Below, one piece after another: positions 5,377 through 52,230 of a stretch of 64,000 bases of DNA (the stretch's first letter is position 1; the number at the start of each line of letters is the position of its first letter). The position numbers and the translations under genes were made by a program. This DNA comes from Salinadaptatus halalkaliphilus (GTDB taxonomy: Archaea; Halobacteriota; Halobacteria; Halobacteriales; Natrialbaceae). Below the pieces are notes generated by a model. That model was not told where the DNA came from. It was given only the letters and a program-made list of their open reading frames with translations, and searched no databases. The stretch covers positions 1 to 64,000 of the forward strand of contig NZ_RBZW01000014.1 of the NCBI RefSeq assembly GCF_006543045.1, read 5' to 3'.

Positions 5377-5631
5377 CGTCCTCCTCAAGCCGTCGCTTCG
5401 AGGATTGCGGGGCGCTCTGTGACCCGTCCGTGCCCGACTCCGCCCGTTACTCGGCTCGGTCCTGTTGGCGACGCTCAAAGCCGTCCTCGAAGTGTTCGGG
5501 GACGTGTACGATCCAGACACGGAAATCGGTCAGTAGCCGCGCCAGCGATCGCACCCGTGTCGGTCCAGACGACGGCCGTTCGCTCGTCGTTTCGGGAACG
5601 CATTTACAACCACGGCGTCTACCGGATCGTA

Positions 5632-6555
5632 ATGACCGACGAGAGCGACACCGCCACAGCAGGCTGGTTTTCCGATCTGGACCCGAGTGATCTCGAGGGT
5701 GCCACTGCCGCAGTTCTCGAGGGGCGGCGCGAACGGCCCGCAGACTGGCCGACGCTTGCCGTCGACGCCGGGTTCGCCGACGACGAGAGCGCGTACTACG
5801 ATCGCCTCCACGAGGCGACCACGGCAGCGACTCGCGGGGCCGTTCGCGAGCGCGAGGCGGCCGATGACCGTCAACTCGTTCACGCGATTCGGGCGATGGA
5901 CGACTGTGAGCGCACGAGCAACGAACTCGCCGAACGCCTGGCCGAGTGGGGCGGGACCGTCGACCCCAACGCCGGCACCGGCCTCGAGTACGCACGCGAG
6001 CTCACGACCCGCGACACCGACGGCGACGCTCGGCCGGACGACGCGACGGCCGGCGGCCCGCGACTCCAGTCACTCGCCGAGCGCGTCGTTTCCCTCGCCG
6101 ACGAAGCAGACGAGCTTCGGGAGTACGTCGAACGTGAAACGCCGACGATCGCGCCCAACCTCGCCGCGCTCGCCGGTCCGGTGCTCGCCGCCCGGCTGAT
6201 CTCGCTGGCCGGCGGCCTCGAGGAACTGGCCAAGAAACCGAGCGGGACGGTACAGGTACTCGGCGCCGAGGACGCGCTGTTTGCCCACCTTCGGGGCCAC
6301 GCCCCCTCGCCGAAACACGGGATCATCTACGTCCACGATGCCGTCCGCGGCACCCATCCCGACGAACGAGGATCGGCGGCCCGAGCCCTTGCCGGCAAAC
6401 TCGCCATCGCCGCCCGCGTCGATCACTACAGCGGCGACCGCCGACCCGAACTCGAGGCCGAACTCGCCCAGCGCATCGAGACGATTCAGGCCCGCACGGA
6501 CGACGAGACGACCAAATCCGACACCAGCGAGCGTAACGGTGGTTCCGATGCGTGA
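5632..6555 (+). CDS. nop5: Nop5/Nop56-family C/D box RNP core protein
   Basis: Scaffold of the archaeal box C/D sRNP, which guides 2'-O-methylation of rRNA and tRNA; it bridges L7Ae-bound sRNA and fibrillarin. The Nop domain lies at about residues 175-270 and includes NLAALAGPVLAARLISLAGG and a GIIYVHDAV segment. An acidic coiled-coil region precedes it. The open frame extends upstream to 5419, but I choose ATG 5632 (MTDESDTATAGWF) because the upstream part is Arg/Pro-rich and not family-like. The product is 307 residues. It overlaps the fibrillarin gene by 8 bp, which supports translational coupling of the two partners. Confidence 0.92.
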   Translation: MTDESDTATAGWFSDLDPSDLEGATAAVLEGRRERPADWPTLAVDAGFADDESAYYDRLHEATTAATRGAVREREAADDRQLVHAIRAMDDCERTSNELAERLAEWGGTVDPNAGTGLEYARELTTRDTDGDARPDDATAGGPRLQSLAERVVSLADEADELREYVERETPTIAPNLAALAGPVLAARLISLAGGLEELAKKPSGTVQVLGAEDALFAHLRGHAPSPKHGIIYVHDAVRGTHPDERGSAARALAGKLAIAARVDHYSGDRRPELEAELAQRIETIQARTDDETTKSDTSERNGGSDA

Positions 6556-7195
6556 GGACGAACGGCTCCCGACGGGCGTCGACCGCCACACCTTCGGCGA
6601 CGACGAGCATCTCGCAACGCGCGGTGAGCCGGTCTACGGCGAGCAGACCGACGGCGAGTGGCGTGCCTGGAACCCCACCCGCTCGAAACTCGGCGCGATG
6701 CTCGAGTTGGGGATGGACACCGGCCTCGCAGGCGGTGCCGAGGAAACCGTGCTCTATCTGGGTGCCGCAAGCGGAACGACCGTCAGCCACGTTGCCGACT
6801 TCGCGGGGCCGACCTACGCCGTCGAGTTCGCACCCAGACCGACGCGCGATCTGCTCGCGGTCGCCGACTCGCGACCGCGGCTGTTTCCGCTACTCGCCGA
6901 CGCTCGCAAACCCGAAACGTACGCCCACGTCGTCGAGTCTGACATCGACGTGCTCGTTCAGGATGTCGCGACCCGCGGGCAGGCACGCGTCGCCCTCGAG
7001 AACCGACGCTTCCTCGCCGACGACGGCCGGCTGCTACTCGCCGTGAAGGCCCGAAGCGAGGACGTGACACGCGAGCCGGGCGAGGTGTTCGCCGACGTGC
7101 GCGAAGAACTCGCAACCGGCTACGAGGTCCTCGAGACGCGACGGCTCGAAGACTACCACGCGGATCATCTCGGGGTCGTCGCTCGCCCCGAATAG
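6548..7195 (+). CDS. flpA: Fibrillarin-like rRNA/tRNA 2'-O-methyltransferase
   Basis: Catalytic subunit of the box C/D sRNP, transferring methyl from S-adenosylmethionine to ribose 2'-OH. The SAM-binding loop is seen near residue 68 (VLYLGAASGTTVSHVAD), followed by YAVEFAPRPTRDL and DVLVQDVATRGQA typical of archaeal fibrillarins. The ATG at 6548 lies inside the end of nop5 and gives 215 residues, close to the usual archaeal length. The open frame extends further upstream but overlaps nop5 extensively, so the internal start is preferred. It is followed by a hairpin and a convergent gene. Confidence 0.93.
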   Translation: MREDERLPTGVDRHTFGDDEHLATRGEPVYGEQTDGEWRAWNPTRSKLGAMLELGMDTGLAGGAEETVLYLGAASGTTVSHVADFAGPTYAVEFAPRPTRDLLAVADSRPRLFPLLADARKPETYAHVVESDIDVLVQDVATRGQARVALENRRFLADDGRLLLAVKARSEDVTREPGEVFADVREELATGYEVLETRRLEDYHADHLGVVARPE

Positions 7196-7260: not shown

Positions 7261-8565
7261 CTACGGCCCGTCGACGACGAACTCGTCGGCGAGCTCTCGA
7301 GGCGTGACGAGCTCGAGGTCGCCGGTTTCCCGCAGCTGGGCGAGGCGTGTGGCCATCGCCTCGAGTGCCTCGGCGTCGTCTTCGTCCATCTCGTAGAAGA
7401 CGATCGTCGTGATACCGCCGTGTTCGGCCGTCCACTCGAGTGCGTCGGTCAGCTGCTCGGCCGACAGGTTCCGCCGATCGACGCCGCCCGAGATCCGTGG
7501 CAGGGTGAGATGGTTGCTTGCGTAGCCGTGAGACCGGTTGCGATCCCCGAAGCCGAGGTCGTAGTGGTCGCCGACGAGCTCGAGCATCCGTCCGTCGAAC
7601 CGCCCGCCCGGGAACCCGAAGTATCGCGCGTCGTCGTAACCCCGCTCGGCGAACCACTCCAGCGGGGAGCGAATATCGGTCTCGAGCCGGTCGGGGTCGA
7701 CCTCGTGGAGGTGCCGGTGGCGGGCGCCGACGGTGCCAAGCGTCCAGCCGGCGTCGGCCAACTCGGCGACCTGAGCCTCGGTCATGCGGTCGCCAGCGAC
7801 GCCGTCGGTCCCGCGGATCCGCGCGGTGGCCAGAAACGTCGACGCCGTGAGATCGTGCGCCGAGAGGATCGGATACGCCAGCGTGTAATCCGTCTCGAAC
7901 CCGCCCTGGAACTGGATCTGAACGCGCCCCTGCTCGACGCGCGGAACGAAGTGAAGGTCGTCGATCCGGAGCGTCCGTGCGGCGCCGCCGGTCCACTGGA
8001 GGATCTGAATCTCGGTGATCGTCCCCAGATCGGGATCGCCGCTGACGGCCGTGTGTCCGAAGTTCCGCCTGACGAACGGCTGGCCCTCGCGAACGTGTTG
8101 GCGATACTGGCGGTAGTCGCCGCTCGCGTCCCGCAGCCGGATCAGCGGGTTTCCGACGCTGTCGGTCTCGAGGGCCAGTCCGGGAACGACTGCCCGGACG
8201 TCGATCGGCTCGGCCAGTTCACGCGCGATCCGAACCTGCTGTGTACCCTCGGCGGCGACGATTCGGGCCGATTGTGAGCCGAGGGCAGCGTGTTCGCGAT
8301 CCGCCTCGAGGGTCCCGGCGATGGGGTCCCACAACTCCAGCCGTTCGAAGTCGTCGAAGGTGCCACGCAGCGACGAGTCGTCCCGGGGCTCGTGGTCGTC
8401 TTCGTCCGCGGGGTCGCCGTCGGATTCACCGGGTTGGTCCGTCTCCCCTCCTCCGGTGTCGGTACCACCGTCGGTTTCGTTGGACGTTGCGTCGGGAGTC
8501 GCGCCTGTACAGCCGGCGAGGGTGCTTCCGGCGATCGCCGCTGCGAGATAGGACCGTCGTTTCAT
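7261..8565 (-). CDS. Polysaccharide-deacetylase-fold lipoprotein with degenerate active site
   Basis: Predicted exported lipoprotein: basic start MKRRSYLAAAIAGSTLAGC with lipobox Cys19, then a Ser/Thr/Asp/Gly-rich linker to about residue 65. Residues ~70-205 resemble a beta-sandwich, possibly carbohydrate-binding. Residues ~215-430 resemble a NodB fold (STFLATARI, the DPDRLETDI helix, YFGFPGGRFDGRMLEL). Key catalytic positions are changed. The usual FDDG motif reads FQGG at 219-222, and the usual SHTxxH motif reads TVGARH at 278-283, so the first metal His is lost and only the second aligns with His283. It probably binds rather than deacetylates glycans, but that is inference. The flanking genes are unrelated. 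Confidence 0.8.
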   Translation of the reverse strand: MKRRSYLAAAIAGSTLAGCTGATPDATSNETDGGTDTGGGETDQPGESDGDPADEDDHEPRDDSSLRGTFDDFERLELWDPIAGTLEADREHAALGSQSARIVAAEGTQQVRIARELAEPIDVRAVVPGLALETDSVGNPLIRLRDASGDYRQYRQHVREGQPFVRRNFGHTAVSGDPDLGTITEIQILQWTGGAARTLRIDDLHFVPRVEQGRVQIQFQGGFETDYTLAYPILSAHDLTASTFLATARIRGTDGVAGDRMTEAQVAELADAGWTLGTVGARHRHLHEVDPDRLETDIRSPLEWFAERGYDDARYFGFPGGRFDGRMLELVGDHYDLGFGDRNRSHGYASNHLTLPRISGGVDRRNLSAEQLTDALEWTAEHGGITTIVFYEMDEDDAEALEAMATRLAQLRETGDLELVTPRELADEFVVDGP

Positions 8566-8888
8566 GGACGTGACGCCGGCACGGAATCCGCCGTGGCCCC
8601 TTGTTATGGGCCTGCTTGGCGACGCAACGACATTCCTCGCGAGCTGTCGACCGTGACTAGGGATTCCGGTTCGGACGACAGACGTGTCGACGACGGACTC
8701 ACTCGGCAGATACTAGCACACAGCGCCCGTCACGCTCGTCGGCTTCTGCAGGGGACTCGTACAGAAGGTCAGTCCGTGCTTTCTCGAGACACGGCTCGAG
8801 TTACCAGCGGAATCCGACTCCTACACCCCGTATCGACGGCCTATCGACGCGTCGTTCGAACGGCGGTCGCGTCGATGACGGGTGACAG
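8566..8888. other. Intergenic stretch, nothing recognised
   Basis: About 320 bp between the divergent start of the deacetylase-like lipoprotein and the 3' end of the frameshifted STAS-like gene. The reading frames here are shadows of neighbouring genes. No tRNA, repeat or convincing promoter beyond the expected upstream region of the lipoprotein gene was seen. Confidence 0.4.
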
Positions 8889-9286
8889 TTACCCGTCGCT
8901 TGCCCACGAGAGTGCCGCCTCGAGGTCGCCGAAACTCTCCACTTCGGCGTCGGGAACCGACACCTGCGATTTGACCGCCATCGCGGTGATTCCGTCCGAG
9001 ACGAACCCGATCCGTCGACGCCCGTGTACGCGCCGTTTTCCGACCACGCCTCGCCCATGTACTCCTGGGTCTCCTTCGGGAGGCTCGTCTCGTCGCCGAA
9101 GACCGCAAGCGTCGCGTCGATGTCGTCGCGACTGCCGCGCCCACGATAGTGATCGCTCGCCGCCTCGAGGTCTTCGTCGGCGAATCCTCGCCACCCCTTC
9201 ATGAACCAGATACCGACGCCGTTTCGCAGCTCGAAGTCCCACTCGTACTGACTCGGATTCGGAAGCCCGCTCGAGGACGAAGTCAT
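8889..9286 (-). pseudogene. Frameshifted STAS-like small protein gene
   Basis: The 5' half reads MTSSSSGLPNPSQYEWDFEL through AWSENGAYTGVD in one frame. The 3' half reads RIGFVSDGITAMAVKSQ to ALSWASDG in the -1 frame. Inserting a single base between 9013 and 9014 (restoring GAC CGG) joins them into one 132-residue protein. The layout (GFVSDGITAMAVKSQVSVPDAEVESFGDLEAALSWA) resembles haloarchaeal STAS/SpoIIAA-like proteins, though I hold that assignment loosely. The start ATG is at 9286. The break could be a real inactivating deletion or a sequencing error in a G/C run. Confidence 0.65.
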
Positions 9287-9455
9287 ATCTGCCGATTGGC
9301 TGCTCCGGTCATAAACGCTGTTCCCAACGCCGGCCAGTGGGACACACGTCGGTTGCGATCGAGGCTGCGAGCAGGTGACTCGGGCGACGGCCACGAGGCG
9401 GTCGAACCGGCCGACTCCAAATCGTATTTACAGTCGGCGTCGAAACCCTCACACG

Positions 9456-10541
9456 ATGGAGCGCGGGTCTCGCGAATCGTTCACGCGAATGGGGACGCTG
9501 GGAATCGAAGAGGAGTGTTACGTCGTCGACGACGACGGTCGCCCCACGAGCGGCACCGACGAACTCGTCTACGAAACGGAGCCACCCGAACTCCTTGAGG
9601 GGCGACTCGACCACGAGCTGTTCAAGTTCGTCATCGAAACCCAGACGCCGCTGATCGAATCCCTGGGCGACGCTCGCGAGTCTCTGCTCGAGATTCGGGA
9701 GGCGCTGCTCGAGCACGCCCACGCCCACGGCTACCGGATCGCCGCTGCGGGCTTGCACCCGCTGGCAACGTGGCAGGAACTCGAGCACGCCGAGAAGCCA
9801 CGGTATCAGTCCCAACTCGATCGGATCCAGTATCCACAACACCGCAACACGACGGCGGGCGTCCACGTCCACGTCGGCGTCGACGACGCCGACAAAGCTG
9901 TCTGGATCGCGAACGAACTGCGCTGGTACGTCCCCATCATCCTCGCGCTGTCGGCGAACTCGCCGTACTGGAACGGGTTCGATACCGGCCTCGAGTCGGC
10001 TCGAGCAAAGATTTTCGAGGGGTTACCGAACACCGGGATGCCGACGTACTTCGAGGACTACGACGCCTTCGACCGGTTCGAACGCCGGATGCTCGAGACC
10101 GACTCGATCGAGGACCGGGGCGAACTCTGGTACGACGTACGCCCGCATACGGCCCACGGCACCGTCGAACTTCGGGCTCCCGACGGACAAGCCGACCCCG
10201 ACATCGTCATGGCGTTCGTCGAGTACACCCACGCGCTGGTCGAAGCCCTTGCAGAGGCCTACGAGGACGGCTCGAGCGGCTACGCCCAGGATCAGCGCCG
10301 CGAACTGTTAGACGAGAACAAGTGGCGCGCGATCCGCCACGGCCAGGATGCCTCGTTTATCACCCGCGACATGGCGGGAACGATCGACCTCGACGAACTC
10401 GTCGACCGCGAGTGCGAACGTCTCGGTATCGACGGCATCGAACGCGTCTACGAGCGCGAAAGCGGCGCCACTACACAGCGTCGACTCCGGACCGAAGAGG
10501 GGGACGACGCCCTCTGTGAGTCGCTATTCTTGCGGGCCTGA
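9456..10541 (+). CDS. gshA: Glutamate-cysteine ligase (gamma-glutamylcysteine synthesis)
   Basis: Makes gamma-glutamylcysteine, the main low-molecular-weight thiol of haloarchaea, from glutamate, cysteine and ATP. The protein has the GCS2 signature at its start ([16 protein letters not shown]), the conserved [17 protein letters not shown] segment, [17 protein letters not shown], and the [20 protein letters not shown] motif. The open frame extends to 9375, but ATG 9456 ([16 protein letters not shown]) is chosen since it directly precedes the conserved core and gives 361 residues, close to family length. The stop codon is immediately followed by a decayed reductase-like fragment. Confidence 0.92.
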
Positions 10542-20703: not shown

Positions 20704-23700
20704 TCACATAAAATTCCCGAGGCCGGTCTGTTCCTGTCCGGTCTTGACCTCTTGCCAGGTGACCCCAAGCGCCTCGAGGATACGCTCGATCGGCCCTTTC
20801 AACGTCTTCTCGAGCATCGTGTCGTAGTCGACTTCGAACTCGGCGGGGATCTGATCGTCGTATTCGAAGCAGATGACGTCCGGATCGCGCTTGAACGCGC
20901 CATAGAGCGGGTCGGTTTGGGGATCGAACCCTTCCTCGGCTTCCATCCGCCGGAAGAACGCGGGGTCGACGCGCTCGAGGTAGAGACGTTTTGGTTTCGA
21001 CCCCCGCTGGAAGTTCGTCCCGAGCACGAGATTCGCGTATTTCGCCCCTCGGACCTGGGCCGTGTCGGTGTCGTAGTTATCCAGGCGTTTTCCGATGCCG
21101 CCCGGGATGGCGATCTCCTCGAGCGAGATGTCACCCGTGCGCACGTCCTCGATGATGCCGTTGACGTACTCCTTTGTGCCCTCGACGTCGCCTTCCTTGA
21201 CGACCATCTCGATGACGCGGTGCTGAACCTCCTTGGTGATCGGTGCGATATCCGAGCGCTGGTACTCGAAGCCGACGATGTCGACCGTGTCGACGTCTTT
21301 GCCCTCCTTCCAGGTGATGTGTCCGGCGTAGCGTTTCTTCTTGCCCGCCTGGAAGAACCGTCGGTAGAGCTTTTCGAATTCGATCTGGAAACGATGGAAA
21401 TCGGCGTTGAGTTCTTCTCGCGCGAAGTCGTCGTATCGACCGTTGATGTACTCCTCGATCTCGAAGGATTGCTCGAGGGCCTCGTCTTTGGGAACGTCCG
21501 GCCCGAGCTCGAGCATCACGCTGTCGGTGTCACCGTAGGCGACCGTGTAGTCCAACTCGTTGGCCGCCGTTTCGGTGAACTCGATCACTTCGCGCCCGGT
21601 CGCGGTGATCGCGGAGGCCGCCTCCTTGTCGTAGAGACGGAATTGTTCCCATCCAGAGACGCCGTACAGCGATTGACCGACGAACTGGAACTTGCCGTTC
21701 CGGCCTGCAAGCAGCGTGTGATTGTCCTCGACGGTAACGCAGTACACGCCGTTTTCGGCCGTACTTCGAGACGAACTTCGGTGCATTCGAAGCGTATTCT
21801 TCGAATCTTCGGTCACGTAGATTCGCCACGAACCGCTATCCCGGTTGTAGTTGGCCGTCAGACCGAGATGTGCACAGAGACGGAGCACGTCGTCTCGAAG
21901 CCGCTCGCTCGAGGTCGTGTATCGCCAGGAGTTCGTCTGTCGGTCACCGTCGCCGTCGATAAGCACCTCGAGGAATCGGCGTTTCTGTCGACGACTACAC
22001 TCGAAGACGAAGTCGGGAATTCGCTTTTCGAAGCTGTCCTCGCCACAGCGCGATGTCAGCAGATCTCCAAGGAGTTTCGACGTGACCGTGTAGGAACGAT
22101 CGTCGACGTAGTAGTCGAATCCCATGTCGTCGAGCAGTTCACCGATCGTCGCGTGGTGATCGACACCGCCGTCGGCGATCGGTAGTTTGTTCTGGGCCAG
22201 TTTCACGGTCGTCGAAGATCCACGGACGTTCTCGCCGAACTGCTTGTCTTCGGACGTGTAGACGTTCCCCTCGGTCACGAACCACGCGAGCAGGTCGAGG
22301 AACTCGTCTCCGTCGTACGTCCGGGGAATCCACTTCCGGCCAGATTCGCGGTGGATGTAGCTCGTTTCACAGACACCCTCGATATACTCCCGGTGTTCCT
22401 CGAACTCTTCGGCGGTGAAGACGTACCCCACCTGCCCGACATCGGCTTTCGACACACGATGGGGCGTCCAGCCCAGTTCCGCGGTAAACGTGTGACCATG
22501 CACGGATGGTCGAACCCAGACCTCGTACTCGCCGTCGATCAGTTTCGTCAGATCGACCTCCTGGAGTTCGTCTCCGTCTGGTCCCTCCCAGCCGTGTGGA
22601 AGTTCGTAGTTCGTCGCCCGGTCGAGGTCTCCGGCCTCGACGAAACTGTATTCGTCTTCAGTGATGCCGTTCGTCTCGTTCTTTCGAACGAGCATTCGGT
22701 GGTTCGGTGTGACGCTGAAGTCGATTTTATTCGTCTCGATGTCGATCAGGTCGCCGTCGTACTCGGGATAGGCGTGCGTTTCGACGACTGGTTTGCGCTC
22801 CAATTCGTCGGTCTCAGGATCGAGCGAATAGACCTCGTCACCGATCTCGAGGTCAGTTATGTCGCGAACACCGTGGGGTGTTAGCACCTCCGTATCCGGT
22901 GTGAAGCAGTTCATAATAACCTTTACCGCACCCTGCTGGCGGTCGTACTGCTCGTACTCGAGCGTTCCCGGTTCGTGCTCGTTTCGCAGTTCCTTCTTCT
23001 CCTCGCGCTCGGCGAGCAGTTCCGTAATCATCTCGCGCATCACGCCGTCGGGTTTTTTCCGGAAGTGAATCGGCTCGGGTTCGGTGGGCGCGACGTACGT
23101 TTCACCGTCGTACTCGCCGGGATCGACCTTCGTCTCCGGGGAGGCGTTGACCGTCGTCATACACATCGGGTACAGCGATTTGAGGTCGAGTACGGTCACG
23201 TTCTCCTTGACGCCTGTGATCGGCTCGAAGACAGCCCCACCCTCGTACTCCTCGCCGGCTTCCTGTTGGCCCTTCGAAGGGAGCGCGAACTGGCCGTGGG
23301 CCTGGTGCAGGACGTACATGTCGACCGCGTCCCCCGGCGTCGGCGCGTCCTCGAGTTTACAGCCGACGAACGCTCGCACCTCGTCCCAGAAGGGAATGAT
23401 CTGCTGGTGGCGGTCGAGTTCGACACAGAGTTCGACGTCCCGGAGATTGTACTCGAGCAGTTGTGTCGGATCGGTCTCCCAGAGGTCGCCGATGTCGCCG
23501 GCGTAGCGTTCCTTCCCGACACCTAACTCGGTCTCCCCGACGGCGTCGAGTCGGTAGGAGTCCAGTTCGGAGAAAACCATCCGCTGGTAGCCATACAGCA
23601 GGTCGAAGACGACCCGGCCCTTGATATCGGGGCCGCCCCAGTTGCTGCGCCAGACCTCGTCGACCCGCGAGAGCCGGTCGATCGAGAGGTCGTAGTCGTG

Positions 23701-24666
23701 GTGGGGACCCTGGAGTTCCTCGAGGCGGTCGAGAACGTAGGGGGCGTCGAAATCCTCGAAATTCCACCCGGTCATGATGTCTCCGTTGGTTTCACGGACG
23801 TAATCGACGAACGCCTCGAGCATCGCTTCCTCCTCCTCGAAGGCCCGAATCTCGTGGTCAATTTCGCCTTCTATGGGGTCGTAGTCGGTGATTTCGTCGG
23901 GGATCTCGCCGTCGCCATCGGGCGCGTCGAACAGCCACATGACGTACTCGTCGCGATAGGAGTCGTGGCTCGTGAGACAGACGATCGGCTCTTCGCCGTC
24001 CTCGGGGAACCCGTGGCGGTCCTCGACCTCGATGTCGAACGTCAGGACGCGAGGCTCCGCGTCGACATCTACGGCCTCGACTTCCTCGTGGGGGACGACC
24101 AGCGAATCGTCGTCCGCGCGTCGCTCCGGCACCCGAATGCCGCTGCGGATGTCCTTGTCGATCAGAAACCGGTTCGGAAAGAGGATGTCCGCCTCGTAGT
24201 GCTCGAAGTCGTCACGAATCTGCCCGACGTCGCGTGGCGTCTGGCCGAAGATCTTCGTCAGTTTCTCGCCACGAATACTCTCATAGGGCTCCTCGTTCCG
24301 GTCGAGTTCGCGGCTGTCGGTGAGGCGATCGTAGGCCTCTTCGGGCGGCCGCTCGAGGCTGTCGGTCGGCGCGTAAAAGTATGGGCGAAAGCCGACGACC
24401 TGGACGTGCTCGAGCGTGCCCGCAGGCGTGCGCCCGAAGACGTGCATGATCGGTCGTTCCTCGTCGCCGTAGCCGGCGATCGTGTAGTCGACCTGCATCA
24501 CGGCGAGCTCGAGTGTCCCCTCGGGGTCCGGAAGCGTCTCCGCGACGACGTCGATTACCTCGGTCGCGTCGGTCCCACCGTTGCCCGCGACGGCAACTGC
24601 CTCTTCGTCCGGCCGGTCGTCTCCCCCGGAAAACTCGGTAAGTCCGGTCTGGCCCGCCTCAGTCAT
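20704..24666 (-). CDS. polB: Family B DNA polymerase with an in-frame intein
   Basis: Replicative DNA polymerase with 3'-5' proofreading. Translated length is 1320 residues, of which 412 form an intein, leaving a 908-residue enzyme. Exonuclease motifs are seen as TFDIEVED (Exo I), GWNFEDFDAPYVLDR (Exo II) and YNLRDVELC (Exo III). Polymerase motifs are DLKSLYPMC (A), the intein-split VKVIMN/SLYGVSG (B) and YGDTDS (C). The C-terminus QTGLGNFM fits a PCNA-interacting PIP box. I start at ATG 24666 (MTEAGQTGLTEF); the frame extends upstream to 24771, but a TATA-like GGTTTTATTCG sits ~27 bp before 24666. The gene faces away from a small DUF7331-like gene. Confidence 0.95.
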   Translation of the reverse strand: MTEAGQTGLTEFSGGDDRPDEEAVAVAGNGGTDATEVIDVVAETLPDPEGTLELAVMQVDYTIAGYGDEERPIMHVFGRTPAGTLEHVQVVGFRPYFYAPTDSLERPPEEAYDRLTDSRELDRNEEPYESIRGEKLTKIFGQTPRDVGQIRDDFEHYEADILFPNRFLIDKDIRSGIRVPERRADDDSLVVPHEEVEAVDVDAEPRVLTFDIEVEDRHGFPEDGEEPIVCLTSHDSYRDEYVMWLFDAPDGDGEIPDEITDYDPIEGEIDHEIRAFEEEEAMLEAFVDYVRETNGDIMTGWNFEDFDAPYVLDRLEELQGPHHDYDLSIDRLSRVDEVWRSNWGGPDIKGRVVFDLLYGYQRMVFSELDSYRLDAVGETELGVGKERYAGDIGDLWETDPTQLLEYNLRDVELCVELDRHQQIIPFWDEVRAFVGCKLEDAPTPGDAVDMYVLHQAHGQFALPSKGQQEAGEEYEGGAVFEPITGVKENVTVLDLKSLYPMCMTTVNASPETKVDPGEYDGETYVAPTEPEPIHFRKKPDGVMREMITELLAEREEKKELRNEHEPGTLEYEQYDRQQGAVKVIMNCFTPDTEVLTPHGVRDITDLEIGDEVYSLDPETDELERKPVVETHAYPEYDGDLIDIETNKIDFSVTPNHRMLVRKNETNGITEDEYSFVEAGDLDRATNYELPHGWEGPDGDELQEVDLTKLIDGEYEVWVRPSVHGHTFTAELGWTPHRVSKADVGQVGYVFTAEEFEEHREYIEGVCETSYIHRESGRKWIPRTYDGDEFLDLLAWFVTEGNVYTSEDKQFGENVRGSSTTVKLAQNKLPIADGGVDHHATIGELLDDMGFDYYVDDRSYTVTSKLLGDLLTSRCGEDSFEKRIPDFVFECSRRQKRRFLEVLIDGDGDRQTNSWRYTTSSERLRDDVLRLCAHLGLTANYNRDSGSWRIYVTEDSKNTLRMHRSSSRSTAENGVYCVTVEDNHTLLAGRNGKFQFVGQSLYGVSGWEQFRLYDKEAASAITATGREVIEFTETAANELDYTVAYGDTDSVMLELGPDVPKDEALEQSFEIEEYINGRYDDFAREELNADFHRFQIEFEKLYRRFFQAGKKKRYAGHITWKEGKDVDTVDIVGFEYQRSDIAPITKEVQHRVIEMVVKEGDVEGTKEYVNGIIEDVRTGDISLEEIAIPGGIGKRLDNYDTDTAQVRGAKYANLVLGTNFQRGSKPKRLYLERVDPAFFRRMEAEEGFDPQTDPLYGAFKRDPDVICFEYDDQIPAEFEVDYDTMLEKTLKGPIERILEALGVTWQEVKTGQEQTGLGNFM
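21673..22908 (-). other. Intein with DOD homing endonuclease in polymerase motif B
   Basis: Residues 587-998 of PolB. It begins with Cys (CFTPDTEVLTPHG) directly after VKVIMN and ends with KFQFVGQ directly before the Ser of SLYGVSG, so splicing restores NSLYG. Splicing block B is SVTPNHRM, with the TxxH pattern. LAGLIDADG-type motifs are LLAWFVTEG (~206 of the intein) and FLEVLIDGDG (~312), indicating a homing endonuclease that looks intact. The last residue is Gln and the penultimate Gly, instead of the common His-Asn. The boundaries are fixed by polymerase motif conservation on both sides. Confidence 0.93.
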
Positions 24667-24687
24667 GATATCGGGATTGGCAGCCGG

Positions 24688-24698
24688 CGAATAAAACC
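24688..24698 (-). promoter_or_regulatory. TATA-like element of polB
   Basis: Minus-strand GGTTTTATTCG is centred about 27 bp upstream of the chosen polB ATG, the spacing expected of a leaderless archaeal transcript. It supports ATG 24666 over the longer frame. Confidence 0.5.
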
Positions 24699-24793
24699 CC
24701 TTTCTCTCGCGTCGGCCCCGACTGCCAGCGGCACTTGCAGGAGCAACAAGACATATAATGTGGTAACACATACCATAGGATCAGGTGTTCGAT

Positions 24794-25550: not shown

Positions 25551-26411
25551 TCAGCCGAACTTGCCGGTGATGTAGTCTTCGACGCGGTCGCTTTCGGGAT
25601 TTTCGAAGATCTTGTCCGTGTCGTCGAACTCCACGAGGTGACCGCCGGTCAGGAAAACGGCGGTCTTATCTGAGATTCGCGCCGCCTGCTGCATGTTGTG
25701 TGTGACGATGACGACCGTATACTCCTCGGCTAACTCCTCGACGAGATCCTCGATTTTCGAAGTCGCGACGGGATCGAGCGCGCTCGCGGGTTCGTCCATC
25801 AGGATGACCTCCGGGTCGGGTGCGATCGCGCGGGCGATACAGAGGCGCTGTTGTTGGCCGCCCGAGAGATCGAGGCCGCTCGAGTCGAGTTGGTCTTCGA
25901 CTTCCTCGAGCAGTGCGGCCCGCTCTAAGGCCGTCCGTACCTGTTGCTCGACGTTCTCGTCTTGGTCCTGTACACGAAGTCCGTAGGCGACGTTGTCGAA
26001 GATGCTCTTGGGGAACGGATTGGGTTTCTGAAACACCATGCCGATCTTCCGACGTAAGGCGACGGGATCGACGTCCTCGTCGTAGACGTTTTTTCCGTGA
26101 AAGGACAGCTCTCCGTCGACGCGAGCGATGTCGATGAGATCGTTCATCCGGTTGATCGAGCGCAGGAACGTCGACTTCCCGCAGCCGGAGGGCCCGATGA
26201 GCGCGGTCACCTGTCGTTCCGGAATCGTCATGTCGATTCCATCAAGCGCCTGGTCGTCGCCGTAGTAGACGTCGAGATCACGTGATTCGATGACGGGATC
26301 GGCCACGCGAGACGAACCGAGCGACCCGTCGTCAACGCTCGTCGCGGTCGACTGCTGGTCGTCGGCTGCGGACTTGGATACGGTTCGTGGGGCCTCTCCG
26401 TTCGCAGTCAT
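25551..26411 (-). CDS. pstB: Phosphate ABC transporter ATP-binding protein PstB
   Basis: ATPase of the high-affinity phosphate importer. Walker [21 protein letters not shown], the [33 protein letters not shown] block and [19 protein letters not shown] match PstB closely; NRMNDL after Walker A is diagnostic. The open frame allows a GTG at 26513; I prefer ATG 26411 ([15 protein letters not shown]), though the longer form cannot be excluded. It lies 249 bp downstream of the sensor kinase with its own TATA-like element, so it is probably also transcribed separately from pstS-C-A. Confidence 0.93.
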
Positions 26412-26573
26412 AGAACGTACGACACCCTTGGCACTCGAGCAGTTACTTGTTCCGGATTCGATCGACTGCGACTCGGAACTGGGCGTCGGCGTTGCGGGTC
26501 GGTCCGTTTCCACAACCCCACAGGCTCGACCCGATACTCGTCGTGGTGCATATCGAACCGTTGTCGGTCGAAC

Positions 26574-26640
26574 TAAAATACGATACTATGAGGAGTCAGT
26601 AGGAAACTAGATCTCTCCATACGGCCATATAGTCCTATGT
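26574..26640 (-). promoter_or_regulatory. Candidate phosphate-responsive promoter of pstB
   Basis: Minus strand. A TATA-like CGTATTTTAG (26573-26582) precedes pstB. About 40-60 bp further upstream lies CTACATAGGACTATATGG, sharing the 10-mer TACATAGGAC with the site upstream of pstS (plus strand, near 31400), in opposite orientation relative to the gene. The shared motif at two pst promoters suggests a common regulator; this is inference. Confidence 0.4.
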
Positions 26641-26659
26641 AGCCGAGGCCGACGATCGG

Positions 26660-28360
26660 TCAGTCGGCGGTCGAATCCGAACCACGCGGGAGTTCGAACA
26701 TCACGGTCGTCCCGCTGTCCCCGGTCGGGCCGTCGTTCGTGTTCGAATCCGTCGGCGGCTGGTCTTCGACCGACGGAATAGAGAGCCGACCGTCGTATCG
26801 ACTCACGATCCAGTTGACGAGCCACAACCCGATTCCGCCAGTGTGATTGACCTGTGAGGTCGGTCGGTCACTAGCAATAGCGGAGCCTTCGACGGGCGGA
26901 ATCCCTGGACCGTCGTCGTCGATTCGAACCCGCACCCACTGCTCGTCGGTTTCGACGGTGACCTCGACGCTCGCGTTCGGACCAGCGTGTTCGGCGGCGT
27001 TTGCGAGCAGCTCATCGATAGCGACGGCAACCTCCTCGCCACAGGTTGCAACGGCGGTTTCCGGAGCGACCACGGTGATCGACTCCAGTTGCCGATGGCG
27101 CTCCGTCCGATCGGTCGTCTCGTCTCCGCCATCGCCGCCGTCGTCCGGCGTGCGCTCGAATGCGTCGACGCGCTCGCGGACGAGCGCCGCGAGGTCCGTT
27201 CGGGGGACTGGCTCCTCGATCGGATCGAGCAGCGACTCCGTCATTCGGGCCCGATCGGCCAACGCCACCAGTTCGTCGGTCGCCACGCGGATGTCCGCCG
27301 CGGTATCGCTGCGTTCACCCTCGAGCGTCGACTCGAGGTCGGTCGCCCGGCCGGCAACGACGTTGAGCGTATTGCGGAGATTGTGTCGCAAAATACGATT
27401 GAGCACGAGCAGCATCTGTTCGCGCCGCGCCAACGAACTCGCCAGCGACTCGAGTGCGGCATCGATCCGACCCCACTCGCCGCTGCCGTCGATCGATGGC
27501 CTCGACTCATAGTCACGCGCCTCGAGGGCGCGAACCCGGTCGTGGAGTCGTCCGATACGTCGAATGTTCGAACAATAGACCCAGAGACCGAACGCCGAAA
27601 TCGAACCGAGAAGGGTGAGTCCGGAGACGAGCTGGAAGATGGCGAGTTGGTTGGTCGTCGCCGATACCTCCGCCCGGTCGCGGTGGGCGGTGACGGTCCA
27701 CTCGACCGTCTCGAGCGTTTCGCTGTGGTCGATCGTCTCCTCGAACTGGTCGCCATCGGAGTACAGCGTCTGGTCCGTCGTTTCGACGGTGATGCCCTCG
27801 CGGGGCGCTCCGCTCAACGGATCGAACAGTTCGGTCTCGTCGAGGTGATACGCGCCATTGAGCGCACCGACGATCTCGTCGTCGTCGTAGATCGGCATGC
27901 TGATGGTCACGATTTCGTAACCGGTTTCGGCGACGAATGGTTCGCTGACGTATCGCTCACCTGCGAGCGCTCGATCGACGTAGGGGCGTTTGCTGAGGTC
28001 TGCTCCCTCGACGTCAGCGGCGTCGTCGCCGGACACGATCGCCTGCACTTCGCCGGTGTCGTCGACGACGGTCGCCCCCTCGAAGGCAGACGTGTCGACG
28101 AACGCTTCGAGGGCGTCGGACTGGGCGTCGGTTCCGTGCTCGGTGAGCGCCTCGTCGCCTGCAGCGATCGCGACCGACCGCTGTTGCTCGCGAATGCGAT
28201 CGTCGAGCATCGAGGCGGAGATGTTCGCGTGGTCCGCGACCGAGGTTTCGGCGTTTGCCGTCACGTCGCTCTGATGGGCGTCGAACGTCAGGAAAAGCAC
28301 CGCTCCGGAGACGAGAACGACGAGCAGAAAGACGAGAAAAAAGCGGTACGCAATTCTCAT
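26660..28360 (-). CDS. Membrane sensor histidine kinase inside the pst locus
   Basis: A 566-residue kinase. TM1 is residues ~7-26, an extracellular Cache-like sensing domain covers ~30-235 (KRPYVDRALAGERYVSEPFV and ETGYEIVTISMPIYDDDEIVGAL are typical), and TM2 is ~241-262. A linker precedes the phosphoacceptor box ILRHNLRNTLNVV with His326. The ATPase domain keeps the N box (AIDELLANAAEH) and RIDDDGPGIPP. No receiver domain is attached and no response-regulator gene is adjacent. It sits between pstA and pstB with its own TATA (ACATATAATGG, about 28379-28390), so a role in phosphate sensing is inferred from position only. Confidence 0.88.
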   Translation of the reverse strand: MRIAYRFFLVFLLVVLVSGAVLFLTFDAHQSDVTANAETSVADHANISASMLDDRIREQQRSVAIAAGDEALTEHGTDAQSDALEAFVDTSAFEGATVVDDTGEVQAIVSGDDAADVEGADLSKRPYVDRALAGERYVSEPFVAETGYEIVTISMPIYDDDEIVGALNGAYHLDETELFDPLSGAPREGITVETTDQTLYSDGDQFEETIDHSETLETVEWTVTAHRDRAEVSATTNQLAIFQLVSGLTLLGSISAFGLWVYCSNIRRIGRLHDRVRALEARDYESRPSIDGSGEWGRIDAALESLASSLARREQMLLVLNRILRHNLRNTLNVVAGRATDLESTLEGERSDTAADIRVATDELVALADRARMTESLLDPIEEPVPRTDLAALVRERVDAFERTPDDGGDGGDETTDRTERHRQLESITVVAPETAVATCGEEVAVAIDELLANAAEHAGPNASVEVTVETDEQWVRVRIDDDGPGIPPVEGSAIASDRPTSQVNHTGGIGLWLVNWIVSRYDGRLSIPSVEDQPPTDSNTNDGPTGDSGTTVMFELPRGSDSTAD

Positions 28361-28476
28361 GTCGGTGTGGTTGTACCATTATATGTAATGTATCGTTTTA
28401 TTATGGTTGTGGCTGTTGTGTTCGATGTTAGAAAGCCGATGTCCATGCAGGCCGCCACAGACGGGACAGCGGCTAT

Positions 28477-29418
28477 TCACCCGCGAGGATCGTACGCGTT
28501 GCGGATGTAGATCGCAACGGCGTTCATCAACAGCAACACCGTCAAGAGAACGACGATCCCGGCGGCTGCAACGTGTTGGAAGTCGCCGTCCGGAAGTTTC
28601 GCCCATTCGAAGATCTGCATCGGCATCGCGCTGAACGGTCCGGTCGGATCCGTCAACTCGGGCGGCGTGAACATCGTCGTCGCCGCCCCGACCATCAGGA
28701 TCGGCGCCGTCTCGCCGATCGCTCGAGAGAGCGAGAGGATGATCCCGGTCATGATCCCCGGAACCGCTTCGGGAAGGACGACGTTGCGAATCGTCTGCCA
28801 CTTCGTCGCGCCGGTGCCGTAGGAGGCCTGTCGCATCGAATCCGGAACGGCCCGTAGGGATTCTTGGGACTGGACGATGACGATAGGCAGGATGAGCAGT
28901 GTCAGCGTCAACGCACCGGCGATGAGACTCGCTCCCGTCTGCAGCGCCCGGACGAAGACGGCCAAGCCGAGCAGTCCATAAACGATCGAGGGAACCCCGG
29001 CGAGGTTGGTGATGTTCGCCTCGATGAACCGCGTCAGTCGGTTATCGGGGGCGTATTCCTCTAAGTAGATCGCTGCGCCGACACCCAGAAAGAGCGTGAA
29101 AATCGCGGTGAGGACGATCAGGTAGATCGAGCCGACGATCGCCGGATAGAGGCCGCCCGGACCGGTCGGCAGATCGCCGTAGTTGCTCGGATCGTAGTGT
29201 TCGACGATCTGGGACGGCGGATAGGTCAGGAATTCCCAGGTGAGCCAGCCCCAGGCTTCGACGACGACGTCGACCAGCAGCGCCACGAGCGCGACGATAC
29301 CGACCAGCGTCGCGGTCCCACACAGCCCGAGGAACAGTTTCCCGAGCCGTCGTTTTCGTCTGACCGCCGATTCGTCGAACTCGAAGCCGCTGTCGTCGGT
29401 CGTCGGTGGCGTACTCAT
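28477..29418 (-). CDS. pstA: Phosphate ABC transporter permease PstA
   Basis: Inner-membrane permease of the phosphate importer, 313 residues with about six transmembrane helices. The binding-protein-dependent EAA region reads [30 protein letters not shown], and [26 protein letters not shown] is typical of PstA. ATG 29418 ([17 protein letters not shown]) overlaps the stop of pstC by 4 bp, a translational-coupling arrangement that favours this start over the slightly longer frame. Confidence 0.93.
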
Positions 29419-30356
29419 TGGTACTCCTCCCGGTAGCGGGACCGAACCCACATGCTGAAGATGTTCATCAGGAACGTCATCACGAACAGGGTCAACCCGA
29501 TCGCGAACAGGCTCTGATAGCCGATCGATCCGACCGACGCGTCACCCGTCCCGATCTCGACCATGTACGCCGTCATCGTCTGAATCTCCTCGAAGGGGTT
29601 GCGTGTCAGTTGGGGCAGTGCACCCGCCGCGAGCGCGACCGCCATCGTCTCGCCGATGGCCCGCGACACCGCGAGGATGTAGGCCGCGACGATTCCCGAC
29701 AGCGACGCCGGCAGCACGACTTGCGTCGAGACCTCGAACTTCGTCGCGCCCAGCCCGTAGGCCGCGTTCCGAAGCGAGTCGGGAACCGACGACATCGCGT
29801 CTTCGGAGATCGACGACACCATCGGGATGATCATGATGCCGACGACGATCGCCGCTGCAGCAGCGTTGAACGTCCCCGGTTCCGGGAGCAGCGGAACCCG
29901 GCCCCCGAGCCCCTGGAGAATCGGGGTAATAAACGAGATCGCGAAAAAGCCGTAGACGATCGTCGGAATGCCCGCGAGGATCTCGAGCACCGGTTTGACG
30001 ACGCTGCGAACGCGCGGACTGGCGTACTCCGAGAGATAGATCGCCGTCAGCGTGCCGACCGGAACCGCGATCAGCGCCGCGCCGACGGTGATCATGAGCG
30101 TCCCCCAGACCAGTGGGAGGACCCCAAAGCTCGGATCGTCGGCCGCCCGTGGCGACCAGTTCGTTCCGGTGAGATACTCGACGATCGAGACGGCCGAGAA
30201 GAAGTCGATCGCACCCTCGACCAGCACGGCGATAATCGCCACCGTCGTCGCGACCGTGACGAACGCACACGCGAAGAAGACGTATCTCGCGACCCGATCG
30301 CCGATCGTCCCGACATCGTTACCGGACCGGCTCAGGTCGATCGGTTCCGAACTCAT
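29415..30356 (-). CDS. pstC: Phosphate ABC transporter permease PstC
   Basis: Partner permease of PstA, 313 residues. It has six predicted helices, the conserved [20 protein letters not shown] segment, [20 protein letters not shown], and the EAA loop [27 protein letters not shown]. It overlaps pstS at its start and pstA at its end by 4 bp each, so the three genes form one tightly coupled unit. Confidence 0.94.
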
Positions 30357-31342
30357 GTGACCCCCGCGATCGCGTCCTCGAGTTTCTCGCGCTGGCTGTC
30401 GATCGTTTCGTCGGGGACCGCATAGAAACCGACGTCGCGGGCGGTTTCCTGGGTGTTCTCCAGATAGAACCGAACGAACGCACGAAACTCCTCTCGAGCG
30501 AGCGCGCCCATCCGAACGTAGAGATACATCGGTCTAGACAGCGGTTGATAGGTTTCTGCTTCGATCGTCTCGCGTTCGGGTTCGACACAACCGTTACCGT
30601 TGTCGATCGCGACGAGGTCCACATCGTCTTCGTTCTCGTAGTAGTAGCCGGCCCCACCGAAGCCGACCGCGTGACGATTACCCCGAACGCCGCGAATGAT
30701 GTTGTTCGTATCCGGCGAGCCGCTGAAGTCATCTCGGATATTGCCGACCGCACCGTTTATCTGCTCGGTGAAATAATCGTAGGTACCCGACGCCGCATCC
30801 CGACCGTAAAAGGCGATTTCCTCGTCGGGCCACTCTTCGTCGGGCCGCTCGTCGTCGAGGTCGGCCCAGGTCTCGACGTCCGAACCCCGTTCCCACATTC
30901 GGCTCAGTTCCTCGACCGTGAGACAGTCACACCAGTCGTTGTCGGGGTGTTTCATCACGGCGAGGCCGTCTAAGACGACCTCGAGTTCGAGCCACTCGAC
31001 GCCGTTGTCTGCACACTGGTCGGCCTCGGCATCGTTGATCTCCCGGCTCGCGTTCTGCAGATCCGTCTCGTCTCGACAGAACTGCTGGAAGCCGGCGCCG
31101 GTCCCGGCTCCGCTAACGGAAATATTCACCTGGTTGTTCTCCCACATAAATAGTTCGGCGACCAACGCGCTGTTTGGCAACAGCGTGTTCGAGCCGTCGA
31201 TGACGATTTCGCCCTCGAGATGACTCGATTCGCCGCGAGTGATACAGCCTGCAAGCCCAGCAAGCGTGGTTCCTGTGGCACCGAGTAGAACCTGCCGACG
31301 TGACACCGCGCCGGCTCGGTCAGTGATCGGCTCCGTACCCAT
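30353..31342 (-). CDS. pstS: Phosphate-binding lipoprotein PstS
   Basis: Extracytoplasmic phosphate receptor, 329 residues. The N-terminus RRQVLLGATGTTLAGLAGC is a twin-arginine lipoprotein signal with lipobox Cys. The mature part shows the PBP-like phosphate-binding pattern: IDGSNTLLPNSALVAELFMW, SGAGTGAGFQQFCRDETDLQNASREI, FYGRDAASGTYDYF and VGFGGAGYYYENEDDV. A much longer frame extends upstream to 32596, but ATG 31342 is clearly right: it gives the signal peptide and has a TATA box 25-32 bp before it. It is the first gene of pstSCA. Confidence 0.94.
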   Translation of the reverse strand: MGTEPITDRAGAVSRRQVLLGATGTTLAGLAGCITRGESSHLEGEIVIDGSNTLLPNSALVAELFMWENNQVNISVSGAGTGAGFQQFCRDETDLQNASREINDAEADQCADNGVEWLELEVVLDGLAVMKHPDNDWCDCLTVEELSRMWERGSDVETWADLDDERPDEEWPDEEIAFYGRDAASGTYDYFTEQINGAVGNIRDDFSGSPDTNNIIRGVRGNRHAVGFGGAGYYYENEDDVDLVAIDNGNGCVEPERETIEAETYQPLSRPMYLYVRMGALAREEFRAFVRFYLENTQETARDVGFYAVPDETIDSQREKLEDAIAGVT

Positions 31343-31366: not shown

Positions 31367-31406
31367 TCTAAATACCCTACTATGTTTCCTATATAGGGAT
31401 ACATAG
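31367..31406 (-). promoter_or_regulatory. pstS promoter with nested dyad element
   Basis: A TATA box (minus strand TATTTAGA, 31367-31374) lies ~28 bp before the pstS ATG, fitting a leaderless transcript. Directly upstream is a nested palindrome: outer arms CTATGT (31380-31385) and ACATAG (31401-31406), inner perfect palindrome CCTATATAGG (31388-31397). Its position at the BRE/TATA edge suggests a binding site for a phosphate-responsive regulator. Confidence 0.55.
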
Positions 31407-31546: not shown

Positions 31547-32542
31547 ATGGAAACGCGTAAGGTCCAGGTAACGGGAGGATCGACCTACACCGTCTCGCTG
31601 CCGAAAGGGTGGGCGACCGACAACGAGATCAGTTCGGGGTCGACGGTCGAACTCTACCCTGAAGACGACTCGCTGTTGCTGACGCCCCGGAGCGAAACCG
31701 ATCGACAGGAGGGGACCCTCGACGTTTCCGACCTCGAGGGCGAACGACTCACCCGAGCCGTGATGACGATGTACGTCAGCGGCTTCGACATCATCCGCCT
31801 CGAGGCGACCCGAATCACGACCGACCAGCGACGGGCAATTCGGGACGCCACGCAGAGTCTCGTCGGCGTCGAAGTACTGGAGGAGACGACCGACAGCGTC
31901 GTCATCCAGGACCTGCTCGACTCCTCGGAGCTCTCGATCGTCAACGCCGTCTCGCGCATGCGCTTGATCGCCACCTCGATGCTCGAGGACGCCGTCGTCG
32001 CTCTCACCGAAAACGACGACGACATCGCCCGCGACGTCATCGAACGCGACGACGATGTCGATCGGCTCTGGCTCGTCGTCTCCCGTATCTTCCGTGCGAC
32101 GCTTCGCTCGCCCCGCGCTGCCGAGGAACTCGGCGTCCCCCGCGAGGACTGCTTCGACTACCACTCGAGCGCTCGTCAACTCGAACGAGTTGCCGACCAC
32201 GCCGCCAAGATTAGTAATCTCGCGCTCAAACTCGAGGAGATTCCCGACTCCGTCGCCGACGCGCTCGAGGCGCTGCAGGCCGACGCCGTCGACGTTCTCG
32301 AGAAGGCGATGGACGCCCTCTTTGCCGACGAGACTGAGGACGCAAACCGACTCGGCCACGCCGCTCGCGAGGCCGTCCTCGAGATCGACGAACACACCCG
32401 CCACATCGACGACATGCTCCGGGATCTCGAGCCCGTCCAGGCCCAGTCGCTCGGTTTGATCGTCGACTCGCTCTCGCGAAGTGCCGACTACGGCGGTAAC
32501 ATTGCCGAGACAGCGTTGCAGAAGGCAGCCCCTCGTCCCTGA
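31547..32542 (+). CDS. phoU: PhoU-domain regulator with N-terminal AbrB/SpoVT domain
   Basis: A 331-residue haloarchaeal PhoU-type protein. Residues 1-45 form a SpoVT-AbrB DNA-binding fold (METRKVQVTGGSTYTVSLPKGWA). The rest is a helical bundle with two PhoU repeats (IVNAVSRMRLIATSMLEDAV... and ARQLERVADHAAKISNLALKLEEI, with the E/DxxxD metal pattern). It likely controls Pst transport or transcription in response to phosphate. It is divergent from pstS. The AbrB fusion would allow it to bind promoter DNA directly, which is inference. A T-rich stretch follows the stop. Confidence 0.9.
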   Translation: METRKVQVTGGSTYTVSLPKGWATDNEISSGSTVELYPEDDSLLLTPRSETDRQEGTLDVSDLEGERLTRAVMTMYVSGFDIIRLEATRITTDQRRAIRDATQSLVGVEVLEETTDSVVIQDLLDSSELSIVNAVSRMRLIATSMLEDAVVALTENDDDIARDVIERDDDVDRLWLVVSRIFRATLRSPRAAEELGVPREDCFDYHSSARQLERVADHAAKISNLALKLEEIPDSVADALEALQADAVDVLEKAMDALFADETEDANRLGHAAREAVLEIDEHTRHIDDMLRDLEPVQAQSLGLIVDSLSRSADYGGNIAETALQKAAPRP

Positions 32543-33601: not shown

Positions 33602-33952
33602 TCAGTTCGACGGCGTCGGATGGCCGTTTTTCGACGGGGGATAGATGATGACGTCGCCGTTTGCGTATACGAACACTTCGTGCTCGAGGGCGGTAAACGC
33701 CACGTGACCGCCGGTTCGGTCGGTGCCGTCGGCTTTCGGGCTAAAGAGCCGATCGAGGGCGTCGGGGTCGATGCTATCGTAGAGAGAGAACTCCCCCTGG
33801 GAGACGTCGGTGTCGGCGATCTCCGCGATCGCGTGGACGATCGTCGTCGTCAGCGTCGCGGTCCCCTCCACGTCGTGGTGGAACACGTACCGGTCGTTAG
33901 GCTGATCGTACTGGAGGTCCGTCGTTGCGCTTGCTGGTGATTCCGTCTGCAT
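33602..33952 (-). CDS. Stand-alone HalOD1 output-domain protein
   Basis: A 116-residue protein whose core YDSIDPDALDRLFSPKADGTDRTGGHVAFTALEHEVFVYANGDV matches the HalOD1 domain, a haloarchaeal output module usually found behind receiver domains. Here it stands alone. A TATA-like element on the minus strand (CTTTTATACC, about 33991-34000) lies ~45 bp upstream. Function is unknown; a second HalOD1 protein is encoded at 36744. Confidence 0.85.
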   Translation of the reverse strand: MQTESPASATTDLQYDQPNDRYVFHHDVEGTATLTTTIVHAIAEIADTDVSQGEFSLYDSIDPDALDRLFSPKADGTDRTGGHVAFTALEHEVFVYANGDVIIYPPSKNGHPTPSN

Positions 33953-36743: not shown

Positions 36744-37013
36744 ATGGATGCAGTGACTGTGGACGCCGATACGACCGTCTCATCGTCGAAACCGAGTGTC
36801 ACGATCGTCGAGCGGATCGCAAAGCGCGATGGCGTCGATCCAACGGAACTAACCCCGCCGCTCTATTCGGCAATCGATCCCGAGGCGCTCGACTCGCTTT
36901 TTTCGACGACCGACGGGACGGACGCCAGGAGCGTCGGAAACGTCCGATTCACGTACAACGGATACGAGGTTTGTGTCCAGAGCAGCGGTGAGATTTCCAT
37001 TTCCGAGCGCTGA
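36744..37013 (+). CDS. Short stand-alone HalOD1 output-domain protein
   Basis: An 89-residue protein whose second half (LYSAIDPEALDSLFSTTDGTDARSVGNVRFTYNGYEVCVQSSGEISI) is a HalOD1 domain, closely similar in layout to the product at 33602-33952. No receiver domain is fused. A TATA-like GATATAAGTAG lies about 50 bp upstream. Convergent with the next membrane protein gene. Confidence 0.8.
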   Translation: MDAVTVDADTTVSSSKPSVTIVERIAKRDGVDPTELTPPLYSAIDPEALDSLFSTTDGTDARSVGNVRFTYNGYEVCVQSSGEISISER

Positions 37014-51560: not shown

Positions 51561-51593
51561 CCGAAACGCCTTCCGGGCAGTTTTCGGTTTGTT
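51561..51593. terminator. Hairpin with T-rich tail between convergent genes
   Basis: CCGAAA (51561-51566) pairs with TTTCGG (51582-51587), followed by TTTGTTG, directly after the stop codon of the sensory protein and before the stop of the convergent HalX gene. Confidence 0.4.
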
Positions 51594-51642
51594 GTATACT
51601 CAACCACGACGATCTTGGGCTGTACCGGTACAGCAATCCGTC

Positions 51643-52230
51643 TCAATCCTCGAGCAGCGGCTCGTTCGAGAGTTCTCGACAGAGTTGGCGGTAGCCATCG
51701 CCCTCGAGGAGTTCCTCGACGGTCTCGTCGACCTGCACGCGCAAGACGGCGAGTCGGTCCTCGAGGCGGGCATACTCCTGGCTGGCCTTGCGTTCGGCGG
51801 TGGTCTTCTCCGAATCGAGGAGGACCTTTTTCGAGGCCAGCGCGAAGAATTCCTGCAGTTGCTCGTCGTACGCCGAGCGCAGCCGCAGTCGGTCGATCGT
51901 CTCGATCAGTTCGTCCTCCGAGACCGGTTTGACGAGGTAGTCGTCGAACCCCATTTCGACGATGTCGAAGTCCGGTTCGATCGCCGTCACCATCGCAACC
52001 CGACACTCCAGTTGCTGTTCGCGAATCGTATCCAGGACGGCATCACCGGACAGTCCCGGCATCCGCCGATCGAGCAATACGATGTCGACGTTTTCGTCGA
52101 TCGCCTCGAGAGCGTTGCTCCCATCGTGGACCGCGGTCGGCTCGCAGACGTCCTCGAGCCAGGCGGCGTACAACGTCGCGAGGTCCGGCTCGTCTTCGAC
52201 GATCAACACCGTGGGAGATTGTGGACTCAT
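51643..52230 (-). CDS. HalX-type response regulator
   Basis: A 195-residue receiver-plus-HalX protein. The receiver shows VLIVEDEPDLATLYAAWLE, phosphoacceptor Asp in IVLLDRRMPGLSGDAVLD, the conserved Thr in VTAIEPD, and Lys in LVKPVSEDEL. The C-terminal HalX domain (LRSAYDEQLQEFFALASKKVLLDSEK... and LAVLRVQVDETVEELLEGDGYRQLC) is haloarchaeal-specific and helical. It ends close to the degenerate kinase above, which it may partner with; that is only suggested by adjacency. AT-rich DNA upstream (GTATATTGATATAAC) may contain its promoter. Confidence 0.92.
   Translation of the reverse strand: MSPQSPTVLIVEDEPDLATLYAAWLEDVCEPTAVHDGSNALEAIDENVDIVLLDRRMPGLSGDAVLDTIREQQLECRVAMVTAIEPDFDIVEMGFDDYLVKPVSEDELIETIDRLRLRSAYDEQLQEFFALASKKVLLDSEKTTAERKASQEYARLEDRLAVLRVQVDETVEELLEGDGYRQLCRELSNEPLLED

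Follow-up and report, generated by a model that had tools for sequence, protein, structure and literature searches.

The window analyzed here is a 64,000-nucleotide stretch of Salinadaptatus halalkaliphilus (contig NZ_RBZW01000014.1, positions 1 to 64,000), which carries a phosphate-uptake locus with a histidine kinase gene between pstA and pstB. The genes and elements of this locus are as follows:

25551-26513, minus strand: pstB (NCBIfam equivalog TIGR00972 above cut-off, 377 vs 343 bits)
26573-26592, minus strand: TATA-proximal phosphate-box half before pstB (half-site scan)
26603-26642, minus strand: distal CTACATAGGACTATATGG half-sites of the split pstB box (matrix scan)
26660-28360, minus strand: dCache histidine kinase, 566 aa (open ORF, Pfam, homologue alignment, AlphaFold model)
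28400-28412, minus strand: element CCACAANNATAAT, specific to the kinase upstream region and about 40 nt from the kinase ATG
28477-29418, minus strand: pstA (NCBIfam equivalog TIGR00974 above cut-off, 269 vs 193 bits)
29415-30356, minus strand: pstC (NCBIfam equivalog TIGR02138 above cut-off, 291 vs 196 bits)
30353-31342, minus strand: pstS (NCBIfam subfamily TIGR02136 above cut-off, 217 vs 207 bits)
31367-31406, minus strand: pstS phosphate box, three YATAG repeats spaced by 10 bp next to a TATTTAG TATA box
31547-32542, plus strand: AbrB(MazE-like)-PhoU fusion, divergent from pstS

With all four subunits above their NCBIfam cut-offs, the locus encodes a PstSCAB transporter. The pstB gene has a shorter reading from ATG 26411 and a longer, in-frame one from GTG 26513. 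The corresponding N-terminal extension (26439-26513, minus strand) contains a [FS][AG]T[SG]NC motif and is conserved, in frame and at fixed spacing, in many relatives, and the real PstB start likely lies upstream of ATG 26411, with the extension reaching to GTG 26513. The divergent gene had been read as an AbrB-PhoU fusion in an earlier note on this DNA, and Pfam agrees, finding a MazE/AbrB and a PhoU domain (the latter at 68.5 vs 23.5 bits); the whole protein stays below the full-length PhoU equivalog TIGR02135 (57.1 vs 130.25 bits). A second pst locus of the same genome (L155, C11:36600-48000) holds an AbrB-PhoU gene (78%) and another PhoU-type gene (35%), and is devoid of both the kinase and a good phosphate box. 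Elsewhere in the window (20704-24771, minus strand), a gene for a family B DNA polymerase of 1355 aa contains an intein, with matches to a Hint domain and to a LAGLIDADG endonuclease.

The kinase ORF is uninterrupted through its 566 codons and flanked by pst genes, so that a complete kinase does lie between pstA and pstB, as the earlier note held. Its description as a Cache-type kinase with His326 and an intact N box was equally accurate. Pfam recognizes dCache_1 (residues 45-175, 47.1 bits, cut-off 45) and HATPase_c (residues 446-559, 58.2 bits), the H box (ILRHNLRN) contains His326, and the N (N454), G1 and G2 boxes are all intact. Residues H326, N454, D482, G484/G486 and G509/G511 did not vary among 24 aligned homologues. 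The protein is thus a sensor histidine kinase by its phospho-acceptor histidine and its HATPase_c domain with N, G1 and G2 boxes, and a dCache_1 sensor by its Pfam score and its fold. According to the sequence and the model, a first transmembrane helix (residues ~8-27) is followed by the extracellular Cache part (~28-228), a second transmembrane helix (~240-262) and a HAMP-like linker. The AlphaFold model (mean pLDDT 80, extracellular part mainly >90) displays a membrane-anchored double Cache domain, a long signalling helix and the kinase core.

The best match of the sensor domain among solved structures is the dCache kinase KinD of Bacillus subtilis (TM 0.78 by target length, ~3 A rmsd; structures 4jgo to 4jgr, one with pyruvate), which is also matched by an NCBIfam stretch over residues 9-251. 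The full-length KinD model is far from reached (41.8 vs 775 bits), and the protein is not a sporulation kinase. The Cache signature DRxYV...SDP...A.TGN...SxP is identical in pst-linked and unlinked members of the kinase family, and the sequence therefore bears no sign of a phosphate-specific pocket. A search for residues of this motif specific to the pst-linked copies yielded no clear one, and the conserved Arg125 is replaced by Gln in several of them. Conservation in the kinase is highest in the first phospho-acceptor helix (82% within and 70% between the pst-linked kinases and their unlinked relatives). As this helix is common to the unlinked relatives, its sequence suggests that the partner of the kinase is an older, unlinked receiver.

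The pstS promoters share a common motif, in which YATAG occurs three times at 10-bp spacing ahead of a TATTTAG TATA box, and this phosphate box is present at most pstS promoters examined. With a matrix built from 31 other genomes, the pstS site of the window scored 53.6 bits and the next best site in the window -12.6. The TATA-proximal half before pstB (8.3 bits) is the second-best half-site in the window, and pstS and pstB account for two of the five sites in the 4.5-Mb genome that match the half-box core with at most one mismatch. The split layout at pstB also occurs in the kinase-less relatives L127, L138 and L140. Many kinase-less loci have a box before pstB, either compact or split; several loci have none there. 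Before the kinase, only background scores were obtained at every locus examined, and a phosphate box at the kinase was accordingly rejected. The best half-scores range from -23.7 to -2.0 before the pst-linked kinases and from +9 to +42 in front of the pstS genes of these loci. A box beside the gene's own TATA box is thus complete at pstS, half present at pstB and missing at the kinase. The 'promoter dyads' of the earlier note are really phased direct repeats and lie elsewhere than at the kinase. A recognizable CCACAANNATAAT element precedes most of the pst-linked kinase genes, and none precedes the unlinked copies L066-L068; from this pattern it is probably the kinase's own promoter.

No receiver gene was found beside the kinase in the window, in line with the earlier note. 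The nearest one identified there encodes a REC-HalX protein (51643-52230), 23 kb away and convergent with an adjacent PAS-GAF kinase gene (the pair spanning 49644-52230). Gene neighbourhood likewise revealed no partner among the genome's total of about 30 receiver domains. HalOD1 (halobacterial output domain 1) serves as an output domain in response regulators of haloarchaea, and two stand-alone HalOD1 proteins are encoded within 9 kb of the kinase (33602-33952, minus strand; 36744-37013, plus strand). In locus L204 (genome G195, 4087-6774), a REC-HalX regulator and a REC-GAF-PAS kinase adjoin a kinase relative that is not linked to pst, and they may help to trace its receiver partner. The earlier note had remarked that no PhoB-like regulator is adjacent, but its absence is no clue. 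Since the OmpR/PhoB family is absent from most archaeal genomes, no such regulator is to be expected here, and archaeal kinases and regulators are usually unbalanced in number (PMC5847659).

In order to place the locus within its family, 125 genomes including that of the window were compared. An AbrB-PhoU orthologue is present in 125 of 125, and a full-length kinase orthologue (~50-61% identity) in 18, the window's included. In 15 of these 18 the kinase lies inside a pst locus, one copy being interrupted by a stop: the pst-linked gene of L060 (G099, 7975-9639) is broken by a single in-frame TGA. The order pstA-kinase-pstB occurs in ten genomes (the window's, G041, G107, G108, G110, G099, G102, G104, G098 and G009). 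Its recurrence in nine other genomes, together with pst adjacency in 15, shows that the association is not due to chance. In G009 the kinase sits between pstA and pstB even though the pstSCA genes there belong to another subtype, 41-60% identical to those of the window. G036 has kinase-pstB at the end of a contig, G039 has pstA-kinase without an adjoining pstB, and in G101, G109 and G010 the order is shuffled with the kinase still touching a pstB. In G111, G114 and G118, all of one genus, the kinase is away from pst and next to unrelated genes. Loci L119, L121, L141, L142 and L063 (in G097, G096, G118, G111 and G039) have pstSCA and no pstB within the fetched neighbourhood.

The pst-linked kinases span six genera, with identities down to ~50%. 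The linkage whose conservation the earlier note proposed to look for is real. The kinase is nonetheless absent from most orthologous pst loci, an outcome that the note had named as speaking against its idea; these loci have AbrB-PhoU and the phosphate box. AbrB-PhoU is equally conserved in the kinase-less genomes (83-93% identity). Four genera (g12, g13, g24 and g25) each contain species with and without the kinase, which requires at least four gains or losses if these genera are natural groups.

Regarding its origin, a tree was built from 28 kinases, 14 of them intact and pst-linked. These 14 form one clade (support 99/97.9) and the other 14 all fall outside, so that the sequences are most simply explained by a kinase that entered the pst locus once and was then inherited vertically, rearranged in some lineages and lost in others. 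The inner branches are weakly resolved and still allow kinase transfer between genera. In kinase-less loci, the pstA-pstB spacer can be aligned with the kinase-pstB spacer, box and pstB leader included, and contains nothing akin to the pstA-kinase spacer; a gene inserted ahead of the pstB promoter would leave this pattern. A search for a decayed kinase in the kinase-less pstA-pstB spacers gave a best E of 0.14 and no remnant, and at these spacers loss and non-acquisition look the same. Other families of the order have kinase relatives at roughly 40-49% identity, none with adjacent pst genes among the inspected cases. A scan of genome contigs gave only two weak relatives.

We posit, with a probability of about 0.5, that the kinase is an accessory sensor acting via an unlinked receiver. 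On this view, a phosphate-uptake locus that was already functional would have received the kinase gene together with its promoter in a single event, at a point between pstA and the promoter of pstB. Its Cache domain may read an extracellular small molecule, whereupon His326 would phosphorylate an unlinked receiver of the REC-only or REC-HalX type, which in turn may adjust the uptake of phosphate or some response that is of use along with that uptake. Judging from the protein families and earlier work, AbrB-PhoU at the box would be the core phosphate switch, for which the kinase would not be needed. The genome comparison sets a core of AbrB-PhoU, found in all species, and the box, found at most pstS promoters examined, apart from the kinase, an addition in a minority. 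An accessory insertion is favoured by the presence of the kinase in 18 of 125 genomes as against 125 of 125 for AbrB-PhoU, by the 15 orthologues within pst loci, of which 10 show the pstA-kinase-pstB order, by the single clade of the intact linked copies, by the far lower box half-scores before the kinases than before pstS, and by a linkage that persists with another pstSCA subtype and in shuffled loci. The KinD-like fold favours a sensor role. Speaking against the accessory reading are the lack of a partner receiver by neighbourhood, the in-frame stop in the G099 copy, and a Cache motif and phospho-acceptor helix that are not distinctive of pst, so that it is linkage alone that argues for a phosphate-related role.

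We prefer this reading over three others. The kinase might have landed once between pstA and pstB and been tolerated there while controlling something unrelated to phosphate. Its patchiness in four genera and absence from most orthologous loci, the missing box, the broken copy and the unrelated neighbours of orthologues elsewhere would all fit, but adjacency to pst has been kept in six genera down to ~50% identity, even where the pstSCA subtype differs or the locus has been rearranged, and we consider such a passenger rather improbable. Unlikely, and next in order, is a PhoR-like phosphate sensor whose Cache domain reads extracellular phosphate, or which senses the Pst/PhoU state by contact, and whose unlinked receiver controls the pst promoters. 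The position within pst near a PhoU-type regulator and the recurrent adjacency to pstB would suit it, whereas most relatives have the same box and AbrB-PhoU without the kinase, the Cache motif is shared with non-pst members, Arg125 is Gln in several linked copies and the kinase promoter has no phosphate box.

Last comes direct signalling from the kinase to AbrB-PhoU, which would bring an extracellular input to a DNA-binding PhoU protein without passing through a receiver. The genes are adjacent and no receiver is linked; yet AbrB-PhoU lacks a receiver domain and is no less conserved where the kinase is missing, and the phospho-acceptor helix shared with non-pst relatives points to an older partner, which makes this very unlikely. 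We are similarly doubtful, if slightly less so, that one haloarchaeal branch has wired a dCache kinase into an existing AbrB-PhoU switch, adding an extracellular input without PhoB and possibly without a receiver. The circuit of kinase, AbrB-PhoU and dyads proposed in the earlier note goes beyond the evidence: AbrB-PhoU with a conserved promoter element is a plausible core, but membership of the kinase is not supported, given its absence from most loci, its boxless promoter and a Cache motif that is not pst-specific.

Among known systems, the bacterial kinases PhoR and PnpS are likewise membrane histidine kinases encoded at or beside a pst operon. The kinase described here fails their full-length models (TIGR02966, 37.5 vs 334.2 bits; NF046044, 27.7 vs 400 bits) and, unlike them, has an extracellular dCache sensor, no reported PAS domain and no PhoB/PnpR partner gene. 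Neither the TIGR02966 score nor the neighbourhood, which lacks a PhoB-type regulator, makes it a PhoR, although it is possible that it works like one. The haloarchaeal orphan dCache kinases L066-L068 and L201-L209, encoded away from pst, share family, Cache motif and H box (~40-51% identity) but have unrelated neighbours and fall outside the pst-linked clade. In Halobacterium salinarum, PhoU-type regulators and conserved pho-boxes occur at pst promoters as they do here (Furtwangler 2010, as cited in PMC6560208); the likeness is one of description rather than of aligned box sequences, and the system as described there includes no such kinase. A literature search on haloarchaeal AbrB, PhoU and pst found nothing.

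A 2018 survey reported archaeal Cache-domain kinases almost only from Methanomicrobia (PMC5847659), for which reason a haloarchaeal dCache kinase family is worth recording. Phosphate sensing in haloarchaea is poorly understood, and our comparison separates a part common to these genomes, AbrB-PhoU and the phosphate box, from the kinase, most simply a single addition. Natural pairs of sister species, one having the kinase and the other lacking it, make its contribution directly testable.
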